Below, in pieces: positions 1-29,430 of a DNA stretch of 36,458 nt. Made by a program: the position numbers and the translations under genes. The stretch spans positions 1-36,458 of the forward strand of contig SLHP01000055.1 in NCBI GenBank assembly GCA_007136095.1, given 5' to 3'. The DNA comes from Nitriliruptoraceae bacterium. Its GTDB lineage: Bacteria > Actinomycetota > Nitriliruptoria > Nitriliruptorales > Nitriliruptoraceae. How positions within the stretch are numbered: position 1 is the stretch's first letter; the number at the start of each line of letters is the position of its first letter. A model generated the notes under the pieces. The model ran no database searches. It was not told the origin of the DNA and saw only the letters and a list, made by a program, of their open reading frames with translations.

Positions 1-94
1 GGCCGGATCTGCGTCACCTGTCGACGCACATCTGCACGGACCAGCGCACCAGGGCACGCCACCGGCCGGATCTGCGTCACCTGTCGACGCACAT
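1..94. repeat. Two 63-bp tandem units with imperfect palindrome (left flank)
   Basis: Two copies of a unit start at GAT 6-8 and GAT 69-71, a period of 63 bp. Each carries an imperfect inverted repeat: GATCTGCGTC at 6-15 against GACGCACATC at 23-32, with one mismatch. The array runs off the left edge of the window. It is related in sequence to the 62-bp array at 1178-1455 and lies just past the stop codon of the minus-strand gene 106-1047. I see no gene in this stretch. Confidence 0.85.
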
Positions 95-105
95 CCGACC
101 GCGGG

Positions 106-1047
106 TCAACGGGCGCGCAGGCGCGGCGCCTCAACACCCAGTTCGTACGCCCGGGCAGCCAACGTCGCGCCCACCGTTGCGATCAGGGTCGTCGGGTCCT
201 CCAGATCGGCCCTGCTGACGTAGGTGAGCCGGATGTTCTGGCGGCGGAGCTCGGCGTCGCGGCTCGCATCGGCGGTTCGGCCTGTCAGCGTGCCGTGGTC
301 AACCGCCCCCTGGAACTCGAATCCCTGCCGAACCGATGAGAACCACCAGTCGGTCCTGCGTGACGGCGTCACCCAGACCTGCGCCTCGGGGGGCGGATCG
401 AACCGGCACAGGATCCTGCCGAGCTCGCGCTCGCCGTCGCCCGTGGCCTCCGACCGGTCGAGTTCCAGCAGGCGCAGCAACGACGCGTCATCGGGTCCTC
501 GCGGTGCCAGCGCCGCAACGCGGTCGCTCAAGCGGCCCGGCTTCAGAAGCCCCCGCCATCGCAACACGTCATGTGCCAAACGCAGTCGGCGGACACCCAG
601 TTCCTCCGCGAACGGTGCGCTTTCGATCAGCGCGTCGACGGGCGTGGCGATCCTGACCTCACCCCGCCACATGACCGCGCGACCGGGGTCGGGGTCACGA
701 CGCCGCGGGAACGACACCCCGCTGACCCGTCGGCCAGGCGGAAGCAGGACCTCGAAGGACACCGACCGGTTGAAGGCGGGGAACCCATCCAGGTCGAGCA
801 GCGACAGTGCGGCCGGCCCCGTCAGGGTCGCGCCCGACCCCGACCGGAGTGTCGCCGCGATCGCGGCCTGCACCGGAAGCCGTGCACCACCGAGCCGCCG
901 ATACACCCCGAGCTGGAGCGGCTCCCATCGGCCGGACCGCACCATCGCGTCGGCGGCGGCACGCCCGAGTCGCGTGGTCACCTGCTGGCGGGCGAGCACC
1001 CCCAACTGGGACTCGGTGAGGCCGAGGCACTCCGGTGGCAGATCCAT
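106..1047 (-). CDS. AbiEi-antitoxin-type / DUF559-like hypothetical protein
   Basis: A 313-residue protein. The N-terminus (about residues 1-60: LTESQLGVLARQQV, then SGRWEPLQLGVYR) looks like the winged-helix domain found on actinobacterial proteins annotated as type IV AbiEi-family antitoxin domain proteins. The C-terminal third (DWWFSS, FEFQGAVDHG, a late LTYVSRADLEDP) resembles the Vsr/DUF559 PD-(D/E)XK nuclease-like tail usual in that family. Such proteins are common and mostly uncharacterised, and no AbiEii toxin partner is next to it. The start at ATG 1047 is chosen because the frame stays open further upstream only through the palindromic repeats and low-quality sequence. Both flanks carry the same repeat family. 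A role in defence is not shown. The family assignment is moderately sure, the function unknown. Confidence 0.75.
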   Translation of the reverse strand: MDLPPECLGLTESQLGVLARQQVTTRLGRAAADAMVRSGRWEPLQLGVYRRLGGARLPVQAAIAATLRSGSGATLTGPAALSLLDLDGFPAFNRSVSFEVLLPPGRRVSGVSFPRRRDPDPGRAVMWRGEVRIATPVDALIESAPFAEELGVRRLRLAHDVLRWRGLLKPGRLSDRVAALAPRGPDDASLLRLLELDRSEATGDGERELGRILCRFDPPPEAQVWVTPSRRTDWWFSSVRQGFEFQGAVDHGTLTGRTADASRDAELRRQNIRLTYVSRADLEDPTTLIATVGATLAARAYELGVEAPRLRAR

Positions 1048-1177
1048 CCCTACAGCCTGCCACCCCGTCGCGGCCCGGAGCCGGCGATGTCGGAGGCCTG
1101 TGGATGGACACGTCCGACACCCAGGGCCCACCACCGGACAGGCCGCTGCACGAGCCAGGCCACCCCGGCCCGGTGCG

Positions 1178-1455
1178 GATCTGCGTCGCCCAGCGACGCG
1201 AACCTGCACGACCAGAGACATCAGGCGTGGAGCCGTGCGGATGTGCGTCGCCCAGCGACGCACATCTGCACAGCCGCAACCCCTCGGCATGAGCCACCAC
1301 GGATGTGCGTCGCCCAGCGACGCAAACCTGCACAGCCGCAACCCCCCGGCATGAGCCACCGCGGATGTGCGTCGCCCAGCGACGCACATCTGCACAGCCG
1401 CAACCCCTCGGCATGAGCCACCACGGATCCGCGTCGCCCAGCGACGCGAACCTGC
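1178..1455. repeat. Five 62-bp tandem units, each with a perfect hairpin core
   Basis: Units begin with GAT at 1178, 1240, 1302, 1364 and 1426, exactly 62 bp apart. The core is GCGTCGC-CCA-GCGACGC. In the second and fourth units (1240-1266 and 1364-1390) the arms extend to 12 bp of perfect complementarity around a CCA loop. Units 2-5 also share a linker (CAGCCGCAACCCC, then GGCATGAGCC); the linker after unit 1 has diverged. The array occupies most of the 455-bp gap between the stop of kgd and the start of the next minus-strand gene, and the rest of the gap (1048-1177, 1456-1502) shows no gene. It could terminate or stabilise the kgd transcript, or be a REP-like element. Confidence 0.92.
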
Positions 1456-1502
1456 AGGGAGGGGGCGGTCCGTGTGGGCGGGGCGGCCGGGCCGCGCCGC
1501 GG

Positions 1503-4500
1503 TCAGGCGTCGACGGGCCCGAGGGTGTCCTCCATGAGCTGCTCGAGCTCCTGGTCGTGGACCACATGCTGACCGGCGGCCGGAGAGGCGGACGGCACGC
1601 GCGACGCGCGACGCAGCACCCGGCCGTCGTCGAGTTCCTCCAGCAGGTTCCACAGTCGCCCGTCCACGAAGCCCCACGGGCCCATGTTCTCCGGCTCCTC
1701 CTGCACCCAGCAGATATCCGTCGCGTCCGGGTAGGTCGCGAGGATGTCCCGGATCTGCGCGGAGGGGAACGGGTACAGCTGCTCGACGCGCACGACCGGG
1801 ACGTCCAGTTCGCGCTCGTCACGCTCGCCCATCACGTCGTAGGCGACCTTGCCGGAGCACAGGACCACGGTCCTGACCGAGGCGCGGTCACGGTCCCCGG
1901 ACACCCACGCGGGATCGTCCACGGTCTCGCGGAACGAGCCGGACGTGAACTCGGAGATGTCGGAGAACGCGTTCGGGGAACGCAGCAGCGACTTCGGCGT
2001 GAAGATGATCAGCGGCTTGCGGATCTCACGGTGCATCTGCCGGCGCAGGACGTGGAAGTACTGCGATGCCGTGGTGGCGTTGACCACCTGGATGTTGTCC
2101 TCGGCGCAGAGCACCAGGAAGCGCTCGATCCGGGCGGAGCTGTGTTCGGGGCCCTGCCCCTCGTAGCCATGCGGCAGCAGCATCACCAGCCCGGAGGTCT
2201 CCTCCCACTTGTCCTCGGCAGCGACGATGAACTGGTCGATCGTGATCTGTGCCCCGTTGACGAAGTCACCGAACTGCGCCTCCCAGGCGACCAGTGCGGT
2301 CTTGTCCTCCACCGAGTAGCCGTACTCGAACCCGACCGCGGCGTACTCACTCAACAGTGAGTCGTAGATGAACCACCGGCCCTGGTCCTCATCGAGGTTG
2401 GCCAGTGGCAGGTACTCTTCACCGGTCTTGAAGTCGACCTGCACGGCGTGACGCTGCGAGAAGGTCCCGCGGCGCGAGTCCTGCCCGGCCAGCCGCACCG
2501 TCGTGCCCTCGAGCAGCAACGATCCGAACGCCAGCGTCTCGCCGAGCGCCCAGTCGATCGTGCCGGTCTCGTAGCGTTCCCGGGCCTTCTTGAAGATCCG
2601 ATCGAGCTTGGGATGCCGGGTGAAGCCGTCGTGCTGGTTGAACTGGACGTCGGCGATCCGGTCGAGGGACTCCTTGGCCACCCCCGTGTCGACCGCGTCT
2701 TCCAACTCGATGGAGGGTTCGGGACGCACGGCCTGCGGCGGTTCCGGCGGGGCGGCCTGTCTGGTCTCCTCGAAGGCCGACTGCAGCCGCCCCTCGAAGT
2801 CTTCGAGGAAGCTCTCCGCCTGCTCGATGGAGATGTCCCCGCGCCGCACGAGGCGCTCGGTGTAGAGCTTGCGGGCCGAGCGGTTGCTGTCGATCAGTTC
2901 GTACATCTGCGGCTGGGTGAACGACGGGTCGTCGGCCTCGTTGTGCCCATGGCGCCGGTAACAGACCAGGTCGATCACGATGTCACGCTGGAACCTCTGC
3001 CGGTAGTCGAACGCGAGGCGGGCCACCCGCACGACCGCCTCGGGGTCGTCACCGTTGACGTGGAGGATGGGGGCCTGGACGGTCTTGGCGACGTCCGTGG
3101 CGTAGAACGACGACCTCGACTCCTCGGGCGAGGTGGTGAACCCGACCTGGTTGTTGATCACGACGTGCACGGTCCCGCCGGTCCGGTAGCCGCGCAGCTG
3201 CGACAGGTTCAGCGTCTCAACCACGACCCCCTGGCCGGCGAACGCGGCATCACCGTGCATCAGCAGCGGCAGGACCGGGTAGATGCCCTCATCGCCCTGG
3301 TCGTAGCGGTCCTGCATGGCGCGCGAGATGCCTTCGACGACCGGGTTGACCGCTTCGAGGTGGGACGGGTTCGGTGGCAGGTGCAGTTCGGCGGTGTTGC
3401 CGGCACGCGTCTCGTAGGTCCCCCGGGTCCCGAGGTGGTACTTGACGTCACCGGAGCCCTGGACGGTGTCGGGGTCGATGTGCCCCTCGAACTCCCCGAA
3501 GATCTGCCGGTGGGATTTCTTGAGGATGTTGGACAGGACGTTCAGGCGGCCGCGGTGGGCCATGCCCATCACGATGTCCTTGATGCCGCTGTCCACGGCG
3601 GCCTCGCAGACGGCGTCCAGCAGTGGGATCAGCGACTCCGCGCCCTCCAGCCCGAACCGCTTCTGCCCGACGTACTTGGTGTGCAGGAACGACTCGAAGG
3701 CCTCCGCGGCGTTCAGCCGCTCGAGGATCCAGAGCTGATCCTCCGGTGGGACGTCTTCGTCGACACCCTCGACCTGCTCACGGATCCAGGCCTTCTCCTC
3801 CGGGTCGAGGACGTGGCCGTACTCGATGCCGATCGTGCGGCAGTAGGCGTCGCGCAGCACCCCGAGGATGTCGCCCAGGCCCATCTTCTGCGTCGACCCG
3901 CCAACATCGGTGAGGAAGTCGCGGTCCAGGTCCCAGATCGACAGGCCGTAGTAGGTCGGGTCGAGTTCCGGGTGCATCTCGGGTGGACGCTGCCGGAGCG
4001 GATCGAGGTCCGCGATCAGGTGGCCACGGACGCGGTACATGTTGGCGAGCTGCCCGACCTTCATCTGCTTGGACAGCAGATCGGTCTGGCTGTCCACGTC
4101 GGTGGAATCGGTGCGCCACCGGGCCGGCTCGTAGGGCAGGCCGAGCGACGAGAACACCTCGTCGTAGAAGCCGTCCTTGCCGAGCAGCAACTCGTGCACC
4201 CGGGAGAGGTACATCCCGGACTCCGCGCCCTGGATGACCCGGTGGTCGTAGGTGGAGGTCAACGTGATGACCTTGCCGACCCCGAGCTTCGCGAGCGTGC
4301 GCGTGTCGGCGGCCTGGTACTCCGCCGGGTAGTTGATGGCGCCGACACCCAGGATCGCCGCCTGCCCGCTCATCAGCCGCGGAACGGAGTGGACCGTGCC
4401 GATCGTCCCCGGGTTGGTCAGCGTGATCGTTCCCCCGGAGAACATCGCCGGATCGAGCTTCTTGAGACGGATCTTGCGGATCACGTCCTCGTAGGCCCGC

Positions 4501-5126
4501 AGGAACCCCTCGAAGCTCAGCGTGTCCGCGTCCTTGATGACGGGCACCATCAGGGTGCGGCTGCCGTCGTCGTTCTCGATGTCGACGGCCAGCCCCAGGC
4601 CGAAGCTCTCAGGACGGAGCAGCCCCGGCTTGCCCTCCTCGGCCTCTGCGAAGGTGTTCTTCATGGCGGGGACGGTCTCAACCGCCTTGACCATCGCGTA
4701 GGCGATCAGGTGGGTGAACGACACCTTCCCACCGCGCGTGCGTCGCAGGTAGTTGTTGATGATGCGCCGGTTGACCTCGAGCAGCTTCGCGGGAACATCG
4801 CGCACCGAGGTCGCCGTCGGGACCCCGAGCGAGGTCTCCATGTTCTCGACGATCCTGGCCGCCACCCCGCGGATACGTTCGGGATCCGGCCCGTCCTCCG
4901 GTACGGCCGCGACCGCTTTCCGGGGCGCTGGCGACGCTTCGGGGGTGACCGTCGAGCCGTTGGTCGTCGACCCGGCCTCGTCGGGCCGGTAGTCCGCGAA
5001 GAACTCCTGCCAGCCCTTCGACAGGGCGTCGGGATCCTCGCGGTACTGCTCGTACATCTCCTCGACGAGCCACGCGTTGAGTTCCGAACGCGACGATGGG
5101 GACGAATCCTGCGGGCGATTGGCCAT
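1503..5126 (-). CDS. kgd: Multifunctional 2-oxoglutarate dehydrogenase E1/E2 (Kgd)
   Basis: A 1207-residue fusion matching the actinobacterial 2-oxoglutarate decarboxylase/dehydrogenase of the TCA cycle. Residues 1-40 hold the E1-type N-terminal segment (NAWLVEEMYEQYREDPDAL), then a Pro/Ala-rich linker. Residues about 85-330 are an E2 succinyltransferase catalytic domain without a lipoyl domain, with the catalytic His at 295 in TYDHRVIQG. The remaining ~870 residues are the thiamine-diphosphate E1 (GMAHRGRLNVL, HGDAAFAGQGV, NNQVGFTTS, then the transketolase C-domain with LPHGYEGQGPEHSSARIERF). The ATG at 5126 (MANRPQ) fits the family N-terminus; an upstream in-frame ATG at 5312 would add 62 residues unlike the family. 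Length is close to the mycobacterial protein. In that family regulation is by GarA; no garA is visible here. Palindromic repeats lie immediately 3'. Confidence 0.96.
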   Translation of the reverse strand: MANRPQDSSPSSRSELNAWLVEEMYEQYREDPDALSKGWQEFFADYRPDEAGSTTNGSTVTPEASPAPRKAVAAVPEDGPDPERIRGVAARIVENMETSLGVPTATSVRDVPAKLLEVNRRIINNYLRRTRGGKVSFTHLIAYAMVKAVETVPAMKNTFAEAEEGKPGLLRPESFGLGLAVDIENDDGSRTLMVPVIKDADTLSFEGFLRAYEDVIRKIRLKKLDPAMFSGGTITLTNPGTIGTVHSVPRLMSGQAAILGVGAINYPAEYQAADTRTLAKLGVGKVITLTSTYDHRVIQGAESGMYLSRVHELLLGKDGFYDEVFSSLGLPYEPARWRTDSTDVDSQTDLLSKQMKVGQLANMYRVRGHLIADLDPLRQRPPEMHPELDPTYYGLSIWDLDRDFLTDVGGSTQKMGLGDILGVLRDAYCRTIGIEYGHVLDPEEKAWIREQVEGVDEDVPPEDQLWILERLNAAEAFESFLHTKYVGQKRFGLEGAESLIPLLDAVCEAAVDSGIKDIVMGMAHRGRLNVLSNILKKSHRQIFGEFEGHIDPDTVQGSGDVKYHLGTRGTYETRAGNTAELHLPPNPSHLEAVNPVVEGISRAMQDRYDQGDEGIYPVLPLLMHGDAAFAGQGVVVETLNLSQLRGYRTGGTVHVVINNQVGFTTSPEESRSSFYATDVAKTVQAPILHVNGDDPEAVVRVARLAFDYRQRFQRDIVIDLVCYRRHGHNEADDPSFTQPQMYELIDSNRSARKLYTERLVRRGDISIEQAESFLEDFEGRLQSAFEETRQAAPPEPPQAVRPEPSIELEDAVDTGVAKESLDRIADVQFNQHDGFTRHPKLDRIFKKARERYETGTIDWALGETLAFGSLLLEGTTVRLAGQDSRRGTFSQRHAVQVDFKTGEEYLPLANLDEDQGRWFIYDSLLSEYAAVGFEYGYSVEDKTALVAWEAQFGDFVNGAQITIDQFIVAAEDKWEETSGLVMLLPHGYEGQGPEHSSARIERFLVLCAEDNIQVVNATTASQYFHVLRRQMHREIRKPLIIFTPKSLLRSPNAFSDISEFTSGSFRETVDDPAWVSGDRDRASVRTVVLCSGKVAYDVMGERDERELDVPVVRVEQLYPFPSAQIRDILATYPDATDICWVQEEPENMGPWGFVDGRLWNLLEELDDGRVLRRASRVPSASPAAGQHVVHDQELEQLMEDTLGPVDA

Positions 5127-5314
5127 CGGTGGCGAGTCCTGAGCGGGGGGGACGGTCCCGACAGGGTAGGCCGTCGCAGCCGGCGCACGTCGAGCCGCGC
5201 CGACGATGCCGGGAACCCGAGCGCTCTGCGTGACGTCCCACCGATCGGACGTGGTCATCGGCTCCGCCGGGCGGGCCACGACCCCGCCGACAGACCACGA
5301 CCTGGAGCACACCG

Positions 5315-15224: not shown

Positions 15225-15266
15225 GCCCACCGCGGGTTCGCCGCGTCGGCTGCGACGCGCCCGCAC

Positions 15267-15409
15267 GGGTTCGCGTGCATCCGCGTGCAGCACCCGGAGA
15301 CTGCTGCACGCAAACCCCGAACCATGCCCCGCGCCGCCGCGGGTTCGCGTGCATCCGCGTGCAGCACCCGGAGACTGCTGCACGCAAACCCCGAACCATG
15401 CCCCGCGCC
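15267..15409. repeat. Two 69-bp direct repeats, each with a 10-bp perfect hairpin
   Basis: The unit at 15267-15335 is repeated at 15341-15409 (period 74, 5-bp spacer). Each copy holds GCGTGCAGCA, a 9-nt loop and TGCTGCACGC (first copy 15283-15292 and 15302-15311). An outer GGTTCG/CGAACC pair can close a longer stem. The repeat fills the gap between convergent genes ending at 15224 and 15432, so it could act as a bidirectional terminator or 3'-end stabiliser. There is no T tract. Confidence 0.9.
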
Positions 15410-27900: not shown

Positions 27901-28637
27901 CCCTGCTCAACGAGGTGGCGCTGTTCCGCAACCAGTGGGGGTTCACCCCCGGCGACCTCGATCCGGACGGCTACGCGCAACTGCTGGAGTCCAAGGCGCG
28001 TCCCGTGCTGCGCGACTGGCTGTCGCGCGCCAGGGCCGAGAAGGTCGTCACTCCCGAGGTCGTCTACGGCTTCTACCCCGCCAGCGGCGACGGCGACGAC
28101 CTGGTGGTCTGGGACCCGGACGCGCCACTCGAACGGGAACTGGTCCGCTTCAACTTCCCTCGGCAGGACCGTGGCCGGTTCCTGTGCATCGCCGATTTCT
28201 TCCGCCCGGCTGACAGCGGCGAGGTGGATGTGCTGGGCGTCCAGGTCGTGACGATGGGACGACGGATCAGCGAGGTCGCCCAGGGGCTGTTCGACGAGGA
28301 CCGCTACCAGGACTACCTGTTCGCCCACGGGTTCGGTGTCGAGATGGCCGAGGCCCTGGCCGAGTTGTGGCACCGCCGGATCCGCCAGGAACTGGAGGTC
28401 GTGGCGGACGACGGACCGACCGTCAAGGACTGGTTCCGTCAGGGCTACCGCGGGTCGCGCTACTCGTTCGGCTACGCCGCCTGCCCGGACCTCGAGGACC
28501 AGGAGAAGCTGTTCAAGCTGATCGACCCGTCACAGATCGGCGTCGAACTCACCGATGAGTTCATGCTCCACCCTGAGCAGTCCACCTCCGCGATCGTCGT
28601 GCACCACCCGGAGGCGAAGTACTTCAATGCGAGATGA
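24978..28637 (+). CDS. metH: Cobalamin-dependent methionine synthase
   Basis: A 1219-residue four-module MetH that transfers methyl from methyl-THF to homocysteine through cobalamin. Module 1 (about 1-330) is the homocysteine-binding barrel with zinc ligands including Cys310-Cys311 in GGCCGTTPEH. Module 2 (about 370-640) is the pterin-binding domain (AIGERANANGSRAFKQLLLDEDWDGAL, VIDSTQIDVIETAL). Module 3 is the B12 cap and Rossmann domain, with DVHDIG supplying the axial His791, and then GMSGLLVKST and LGGAALTR. Module 4 (about 950-1219) is the SAM-binding reactivation domain (GYRGSRYSFGYAACPDLEDQ). No cobalamin riboswitch is visible in the 79-bp gap upstream. Translation is probably leaderless. 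The stop overlaps possible starts of the next gene in a tandem-repeat junction. Confidence 0.97.
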   Translation: MTSMLPPIDAHPLLAALRDRVIVFDGGMGTSLQNAGLTTADFGSDDLDGCNEVVVQTRPDVIDRIHRSFLEVGVHAVQTDTFGGAPWVLDEYGLGSQAEDLNRRASEIARAAADAFATPGDPRWVIGSIGPGTRSPTLSLGKDPSTAKDFIDVPFMEEGYRRQIRGLLDGGSDVILVETCFDLLQVKAAVAAANDVFVERGERVPLLVQFTVEKDINTMLLGTEPLAAIAALDPLSIDVLGMNCATGPQDMREHVRTLSRQSRLPISVIPNAGIPYLEDDATIYPLEPDGLAEAQREFVAEMGVAIVGGCCGTTPEHLAAVVDAVDGLVPRPRAVDRPGSVRVGAAGTLTDPDRLDADDDREAITVEWRPSLASLYSAVPIQQDTAFLAIGERANANGSRAFKQLLLDEDWDGALQLARSQTREGAHVLDICVDYVGREGVPDVIQIVDRFATQSTLPLVIDSTQIDVIETALLRLGGRAVINSVNLEDGRVKADVLLPLAKRYGAAVVVLAIDEEGQARTADWKVEVCERVARIAIDEYGLEAHDLIFDCLTFPLGSGQEDLRGDAAQTLEAIERVKDAIPGCATTLGVSNVSFGLSAAARQVLNSVFLKEAMDRGLDSAIVHPGKILPLHRIPDEHVQVATDLIHDRRGPTGMNGEAPDDYDPLHKLMALFEGATESKLSTEDRAALPVEERLEQRIVDGDKDGIDTDLDEALVSHPPLTIINQFLLKGMATVGELFASGQMQLPFVLQSAEAMKTAVAYLEPHIEESGEGSSSSKGTFVVATVKGDVHDIGKNLVDIILRNNGFDVINLGIKQPIDTILAAAEEHGADAIGMSGLLVKSTVIMKENLQEMNARGLGHLPVLLGGAALTRGYVEDDLRSIYEGDVFYCKDAFEGLRVLEAVLKARVEGQSVPDDLAAHKPRRQPKVTRAIEEPPVRDAAGRPRSAVAADVDVPTPPFWGQRVVRGIPLDEVAPLLNEVALFRNQWGFTPGDLDPDGYAQLLESKARPVLRDWLSRARAEKVVTPEVVYGFYPASGDGDDLVVWDPDAPLERELVRFNFPRQDRGRFLCIADFFRPADSGEVDVLGVQVVTMGRRISEVAQGLFDEDRYQDYLFAHGFGVEMAEALAELWHRRIRQELEVVADDGPTVKDWFRQGYRGSRYSFGYAACPDLEDQEKLFKLIDPSQIGVELTDEFMLHPEQSTSAIVVHHPEAKYFNAR

Positions 28638-28775
28638 CCAACCAAGTCAGCCGCAGGGTGGACACGCACCCGAACCGTGCACCACCCGGAGGCGAAGTAC
28701 TTCAATGCGAGATGACCAACCAAGTCAGCCGCAGGGTGGACACGCACCCGAACCGTGCACCACCCGGAGGCCACG
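28598..28775 (+). repeat. 78-bp tandem repeat (2.3 copies) across the metH stop and the next start
   Basis: The unit beginning with CGTGCACCACCC at 28598 recurs at 28676 and, partly and with changes, at 28754. The first two copies are identical as far as I can compare them. Each copy encodes the MetH C-terminal residues HHPEAKYFNAR and a stop in one frame, and GGAGG followed 12 nt later by ATG in the +1 frame. Because 78 is a multiple of 3 the three ATGs (28627, 28705, 28783) are in one open frame leading into the flavin-reductase gene. Confidence 0.93.
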
Positions 28776-28782
28776 TACTTCG

Positions 28783-29430
28783 ATGACCGATGACCCCCTC
28801 GAGCTGGATTCCGCTGCCTGGGAGCCGCGTGCGCTGTACTTCCTGCTGACCGGGTTGGTGATCCCGCGGCCGATCGCGTGGGTCTCGACGGTCAGCGAGG
28901 ACGGTGTGCGCAACCTCGCGCCACATTCCTACTTCAACGTCGTCGCCAACGACCCACCGCACGTGCTCTTCGTCTCGACGGGGGTGAAGGACACGTTGCG
29001 CAACGTCCGCGCGACGGGGGAGTTCGTTGTCAACGTGGTGACGCTCGACCTCGTCGAGGAGATGAATGCCACGGCGGCCGATGCGCCTGCGGGTGTCGAC
29101 GAGTTCGGCTGGGTCGGGCTGGACGCCGCCCCGTCCGTGACCGTCACACCGGCGCGTGTCGCCCGCGCCAAGGCACACCTGGAGTGCCGTGTCGTCCACG
29201 ACCTGCCGATCGGCAACGGCAACCTCGTCGTCGGCGAGGTCACCCACGTCCATGTCGATCCGAGCGTGTGGACCGACGGACGGATCGACCCGCAGAAGCT
29301 CGATCCGGTGGGCCGACTGTCGGGCAGCAGCTACGCCACGCTCGGTGAGGTCTTCACGCTCGATCGTCCGAGCTGGGCCGACATCGCAGACGCCGACCCG
29401 GCCGACCGGATCCCACGTCGCGCGACCTGA
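28783..29430 (+). CDS. Flavin reductase-like (FMN-binding split-barrel) protein
   Basis: A 215-residue protein of the flavin-reductase-like, FMN-binding split-barrel family. The motif GLVIPRPIAWVSTVSEDGVRNLAPHSYFNVVANDPPHVLFV is typical; it is followed by DTLRNVRATGEFVVNVV and, later, HLECRVVHDLPIGNGNLVVGEVTHVHVD and LDPVGRLSGSSYATL. It probably binds FMN and reduces flavin, or uses it on an unknown partner. The chosen start ATG 28783 gives the family N-terminus (MTDDPLELD). Two upstream in-frame ATGs at 28627 and 28705, created by the 78-bp repeat, would add 52 or 26 residues of repeated sequence. It directly follows metH and may be coupled to it. Confidence 0.88.
   Translation: MTDDPLELDSAAWEPRALYFLLTGLVIPRPIAWVSTVSEDGVRNLAPHSYFNVVANDPPHVLFVSTGVKDTLRNVRATGEFVVNVVTLDLVEEMNATAADAPAGVDEFGWVGLDAAPSVTVTPARVARAKAHLECRVVHDLPIGNGNLVVGEVTHVHVDPSVWTDGRIDPQKLDPVGRLSGSSYATLGEVFTLDRPSWADIADADPADRIPRRAT

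Follow-up and report, generated by a model that had tools for sequence, protein, structure and literature searches.

An AbiEi-like gene with a predicted Vsr-like nuclease domain is bracketed by species-specific palindromes at helically stepped spacing in Nitriliruptoraceae

A gene of 942 bp (106..1047, minus strand) encoding a 313-aa protein lies at the start of the analysed window, a stretch of 36,458 bp that forms the entire contig C63 of a metagenome-assembled genome (MAG; G000, 3.06 Mb in 269 contigs) from the Nitriliruptoraceae, bacteria of soda lakes. This single gene stands between two arrays of palindromes, recorded without strand. On its 3' side is a pair, of which unit L1 occupies 2..36 (core TGCGTC-ACCTGTC-GACGCA; 43.8 bits, model R1) and unit L2, 63 bp further on, occupies 65..99 and closes the array. 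On its 5' side, between its start and the kgd stop at 1503, five units follow one another in 62-bp steps: R1 (1174..1208), R2 (1236..1270; 53.8 bits, the best of the array), R3 (1298..1332), R4 (1360..1394) and R5 (1422..1456). The arrangement described in the first-pass annotation, five units at 62-bp and two at 63-bp spacing in the same orientation around one gene, is thus confirmed. The conserved neighbour, kgd (1503..5312, minus strand), encodes a kgd-type multifunctional 2-oxoglutarate dehydrogenase recognized by Pfam E1_dh, 2-oxoacid_dh and other domains and by synteny, and the nearest relatives of this protein come from Nitriliruptoraceae MAGs, many of them of the CSSed or BM series.

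The repetition within the right array is far beyond chance, since the best 24-nt match at a distance of 62 is perfect (24/24) and the maximum over 300 shuffles is 19/24. The first 121 bases of C63 are shared, in reverse complement, with contig C159 (positions 1-121), which continues into the terminal part of an alpha/beta-hydrolase gene; the left array therefore comprises exactly two units and is followed by the 3' end of the hydrolase gene. C63 itself starts inside the left array, and contigs C29, C41, C67 and C92 likewise start less than 1 kb from a palindrome pair, so that the assembly was probably broken by the repeats. No intrinsic terminator (a GC hairpin followed by a U tract) occurs in window positions 1-1700, and an Rfam scan of 1-1600 returned only sub-threshold plant microRNA hairpins, which are meaningless. 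Elsewhere in the window, another tandem pair of palindromes, GCGTGCAGCA-N9-TGCTGCACGC, is found at 15251-15409 between two convergent genes with a 74-bp step; its spacer is duplicated as well, no further copy was present among the loci fetched, and it possibly represents another repeat family. At 28598-28795, at the 3' end of a gene, a 78-bp unit without palindromic symmetry is tandemly duplicated (2.4 copies, 97% alike), which may be a true duplication or an assembly artefact.

The bracketed protein, judged from profiles and predicted structures, is composed of an AbiEi-like winged-helix module and a predicted nuclease of the Vsr/EDxHD type. Searches with Pfam and NCBIfam gave nothing above threshold; residues 27-183 are recognized by the AbiEi profiles of PADLOC (E=9.7e-11). 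The AbiEi-like module, with its N-terminal winged helix, is assigned by PADLOC and Foldseek to residues 1-183 (499..1047, minus strand), the N-terminal two thirds, and the putative Vsr-like nuclease core to residues ~203-290 (178..441, minus strand) at the C-terminus. When the AlphaFold2 model of a homologue in G061 (pLDDT 74) was searched with Foldseek, it led to AbiEi of S. agalactiae (6y8q; E=1.9e-4) and to Rv2827c (1zel), and the model of the window protein (pLDDT 65) matches 6y8q and, in its C-terminal part, I-Bth0305I, a homing endonuclease of the EDxHD type (3r3p; TM 0.80 on the target). The Foldseek match to 3r3p reaches a probability of 1.0 with the window protein model and is weak with the G061 model; the same entry is the sole match of the family profile against the PDB, again a weak one (E=0.047). 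Residues E206, D233, E244, H251, D260 and R263 are invariant, with E206, D233, H251 and D260 checked in 16 aligned homologues.

Across the genome of the window, a search with a covariance model of the 35-nt unit detected 12 loci, each with at least two palindromes of ~35 bp (copy number 2 to 5), and no well-scoring singleton palindrome. Spacing is 62 bp at 11 loci and 63 bp at one. The palindromes are mostly in direct orientation and agree at a mean of 27/35 positions between loci and 30/35 within a locus, where identity spans 23-35 of 35, while the spacers of ~27 nt are unrelated between loci (identity 0.332 vs 0.329 for shuffled sequences). The first-pass annotation had described a repeat unit of 62-63 bp; its palindromic part holds, but the spacer does not belong to it, being repeated only in the right array (the last three of four spacers) and at locus C92. 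To judge from these alignments, the shared element is a palindrome plus a distance and not a 62-bp unit. Dispersed sites lie just 3' of genes: in the window's genome and G010 combined, 11 of the 21 classified on heuristic ORF calls are convergent, 10 codirectional and none divergent. The distribution in this genome is not that of an ordinary REP scatter.

A search of 61 relatives detected homologues of the bracketed gene in 27. Phased direct-repeat pairs (spacing classes 60-63, 71-73 and 81-83 bp) occur within 400 nt at 23/40 flanks and at 15/21 core homologues, against 14/1911 background windows (random 400-nt windows from G025 and G005), giving a Fisher p=3e-33 by a test that treats species as independent although they are related. 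If palindromicity is required, a stricter demand, 14/21 core genes retain a pair. Looser scans add three core genes to the 15; the 72-bp pairs of G026, G027 and G007 appear at looser thresholds only. Six of the 21 core homologues (G009, G021, G002, G026, G027 and G007) are without an automatically detected phased pair. Among these, G009 and G021 have no pair at all, and G002, whose protein is shortened, has none at the flanks. The G002 homologue (L063:4197-5174; L231:1716-2462) lacks ~56 central residues, and its flanks contain no palindrome pairs. Brackets on both sides are seen in G023 and G012 (72 bp), G014 (62 bp), G029 (62/63 bp) and G034 (72/72 bp), as well as in G061 and G062. Two paralogues in G010 are each bracketed on both sides at 62 bp, with CCTGGGCCTGAGCCCAGG pairs around copy 1 and GCGAACGCGCGCATCCGCGCGTTCGC pairs around copy 2. 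Distant homologues (G040, G045, G048 and others) have no nearby pairs in 13 of 14 cases, including a C124 paralogue in the window's own genome. One distant homologue (~35% identity) in G038, a complete genome of another family, lies with a perfect 34-bp palindrome that has an 82-bp partner upstream (L221 1690-1845), hinting that the association extends beyond Nitriliruptoraceae. No close homologue was found in other GTDB genomes (by peptide pattern) or in IMG/VR, and the open-access literature on DUF559, AbiEi or Vsr in connection with palindromic repeats yielded nothing relevant.

The order kgd-gene-hydrolase is common to most core genomes, and the locus is therefore old; a joint movement of gene and repeats, which had been suggested from the sequence of the window, does not apply at this locus. 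The second G010 paralogue and the G014 copy sit away from the kgd slot with brackets of their own. The gene is inverted relative to the adjoining kgd at L251 (G012), L249 (G023), L257 (G034) and L217 (G004b), as if it had been flipped between the two flanking arrays. A further candidate explanation, that the repeats are a property of kgd 3' ends, was ruled out by 63 control loci, kgd 3' ends at which no homologue was detected: none of them carries a phased pair. Two near-misses among kgd 3' ends, L064 (77 bp) and L069 (70 bp), are on Nitriliruptoraceae contigs cut off within the expected gene or shortly ahead of it. The earlier idea that the repeats mark 3' ends applies to the dispersed copies but fails for kgd 3' ends that lack the gene. 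With 12 loci in the genome and a strong link to the gene across species, the picture also differs from one of hundreds of scattered copies unconnected with it. The proposal that the protein acts on the palindrome is upheld as far as association is concerned, as the bracket recurs in many species, with different palindromes and with two paralogues in one genome; actual binding would be the further step. The gene-palindrome association is very probably real, and it can be held with much more certainty than the copying step considered below.

Each species possesses its own palindrome in the same architecture, with a spacing of 61-63 or 71-73 bp and sometimes of 82 bp. In G003, which belongs to the same genus as the window's MAG, the palindrome is TGGCAGGGATC...GATCCCTGCCA at 72-73 bp; in G061 it is CTTGCCGC-N6-GCGGCAAG, whose 11 pair locations all have a spacing of exactly 61 bp; and in G062 AACCCCCGGATCCGGGGGTT recurs at 71-73 bp, with two further cases at 82 bp. 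Counts of single palindromes in G061 (three mismatches allowed) equal chance, the reversed control being higher, and the evidence there is limited to pairs at the exact distance. The complete genome of G010 (5.56 Mb) holds two dispersed palindrome families, always at 62 bp, with none in the reversed-pattern control. Family 1 has one and the same 22-bp core, asymmetric centre included, in four arrays at three loci, and the spacers are random (0.303 vs 0.330 shuffled), which argues that the palindrome was copied or converted, not the whole pair. Dispersed positions differ between species, and only the kgd/gene slot is common. No copy of the window genome's palindrome family reaching E 0.01 was detected in its genus mates G001 (which has no gene and is only 80% complete) and G002, both incomplete MAGs. 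At the gene in G003 (L228) there is a 61-bp pair with one palindrome, and the dispersed 72/73-bp family of that genome (L144, L157, L159, L161, L165) differs from it and resembles the palindrome of the window's genome; a partner gene for this dispersed family was not found.

Successive spacing classes (61-63, 71-73 and 82 bp) differ by roughly one helical turn, and with a period of 10.2-10.3 bp all fall near phase zero. This helical stepping is suggestive and not proof, as few lineages are independent and ancestry may be partly shared. The spacing class follows the protein tree, with 3 changes vs 5.6 in shuffles (3.8% of shuffles reach 3). Stepped spacing of this kind favours two dimers on one face of the DNA. 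A covariation test for an RNA or cruciform hairpin revealed no pairing excess over column composition. Since symmetry resides in conserved half-sites and compensatory changes are missing, recognition of double-stranded DNA by a symmetric dimer is favoured over an RNA hairpin. Self-complementarity of the spacer, as known from REPINs, is too slight to claim (5.25 vs 4.14 pairs).

Several known systems share features with the one described here. REPINs of the GI type are doublets at a preferred distance of 71 bp (PMC3116915), and REPIN-RAYT systems resemble the present arrangement in that extragenic, dispersed doublets at a preferred distance accompany a cognate single-copy gene and that spacer length counts more than spacer sequence (PMC3116915); flanking of the cognate gene by its own repeats is likewise found here. 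However, the protein in question is of AbiEi plus Vsr-like type and not a Y1 transposase: RAYT (Y1_Tnp, PF01797) has no match in G000, G003 or G061-G064, whereas control genomes were positive. Moreover, REPIN doublets are inverted and copied with their spacer, while the pairs here are mostly direct with spacers unrelated even between identical palindromes, their spacing moves by one helical turn, and copies are far fewer. A likeness to AbiE type IV toxin-antitoxin systems lies in the AbiEi fold with its N-terminal winged helix and C-terminal AbiEi domain (6y8q, 1zel) and in the binding of inverted-repeat pairs by members of that group (PMC7319586). AbiEi binds two 23-bp inverted repeats, and the Rv2827c promoter has two inverted-repeat pairs with a 13-bp gap inside the pair and 4 bp between the pairs (PMC7319586). 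By our own arithmetic (23+13+23+4), the Rv2827c palindromes are about 63 bp apart, the same as the spacing here, and palindrome units are present upstream of the bracketed gene as putative promoter-side sites. The differences are the extra Vsr-like domain and the placement of sites, which flank the gene on either side and occur in 3' intergenic positions genome-wide. No AbiEii (DUF1814) toxin gene is adjacent: at this locus, as in most core genomes, the genes next to it are kgd and the alpha/beta-hydrolase. EDxHD enzymes form dimers on DNA targets that approach 60 bp in length (PMC3943268), and I-Bth0305I (3r3p) is comparable in its nuclease core and in the long DNA target of its dimer; unlike it, the gene studied here is not in an intron, is fused to an AbiEi module and lies between intact copies of its putative site instead of interrupting one.

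MIRU/VNTR elements are direct tandem repeats of 50-100 bp with variable copy number at many intergenic loci, and the tandem, direct, intergenic repeats of 2 to 5 copies described here are similar; only the palindromic part, however, is common to loci, the rest of the unit being locus-specific. It is improbable that these are ordinary intergenic repeats of REP or terminator type, functionally unrelated to the gene, with a bracket due to coincidence and shared ancestry of the kgd locus. The dispersed copies are indeed intergenic and 3' of genes, like REP elements, and tandem duplications of units exist in the right array and at C92, but such repeats would account neither for the enrichment of pairs at homologues, nor for two paralogues with two different palindromes in one genome, nor for the empty kgd 3' ends of the control. 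There is also no U-tract terminator and no RAYT, and terminators are not expected to show exact, stepped spacing. Degenerate or minimal CRISPR-like arrays, in which a fixed-length unique spacer separates palindromic repeats, are more improbable still. A fixed period of 61-63 bp, unique spacers and repeats more alike within than between loci recall such arrays; yet CRISPRs combine near-identical repeats with unique spacers, and spacers are repeated in the right array and at C92. Cas1 (PF01867) is absent from G000 and G061-G064, with one match in G003. There are almost always two repeats at many scattered loci, repeats within a locus have diverged, spacings of 72 and 82 occur within the same families, and the associated gene is not a cas gene.

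A more serious, though still rather doubtful, alternative is that the protein binds the pairs without any mobility, as a regulon or as chromosome-organising or insulating 3'-end sites under selection, palindrome and protein drifting together in each lineage. Selection would directly explain random spacers beside preserved palindromes and spacing, and different species keep the same bracket positions at the gene. Site-specific chromosome-organising proteins have a range that includes roughly 10-20 loci per genome, which fits the ~10-20 loci found here, and AbiEi proteins are known operator binders (PMC7319586). On the other hand, dispersed positions are not common to different species, the kgd/gene slot excepted, and about half of the sites lie between convergent genes and not upstream of promoters. 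The 22/22-identical palindromes of G010 family 1, with their asymmetric centre, exceed what binding needs, and the invariance of nuclease-type residues also speaks against purely static sites.

The explanation given preference, for and against which the chances appear evenly balanced, is that gene and palindromes constitute one system that spread in a REPIN-like manner, driven by the AbiEi-Vsr nuclease. Under this REPIN-like explanation, the protein would most likely bind each palindrome as a symmetric dimer, and a separation of 6, 7 or 8 helical turns between two palindromes would place two dimers on the same DNA face, the sequence between them being immaterial. Pairs on both sides of the gene may serve autoregulation and mark the home locus, and pairs at other 3' intergenic sites would be dispersed copies. 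The palindrome would be copied or restored, and installed twice at a fixed distance without its spacer; because palindromes can be identical between loci with unrelated spacers, pair and spacer would not be copied as a whole. The predicted nuclease activity of the protein is postulated to drive this copying.

It is tentatively proposed, at somewhat less than an even chance, that an undescribed class of intragenomic repeat system is represented here: an AbiEi-Vsr nuclease would place two copies of a palindrome peculiar to its species at a distance of an integral number of helical turns, with arbitrary intergenic DNA between them, and would maintain such pairs on either side of the gene that encodes it. 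Bacteria commonly carry REP-like repeats, but a protein partner is known for few of them beyond RAYTs. Here repeats can be assigned to their protein family both between species and between paralogues, which makes repeat maintenance directly testable, and the stepped spacing provides a sharp biochemical prediction. A role is thereby suggested for a type of AbiEi/DUF559-like protein without assigned function, and, if the proposal is true, the system would, having evolved independently, be a second answer to the task performed by RAYTs and REPINs.
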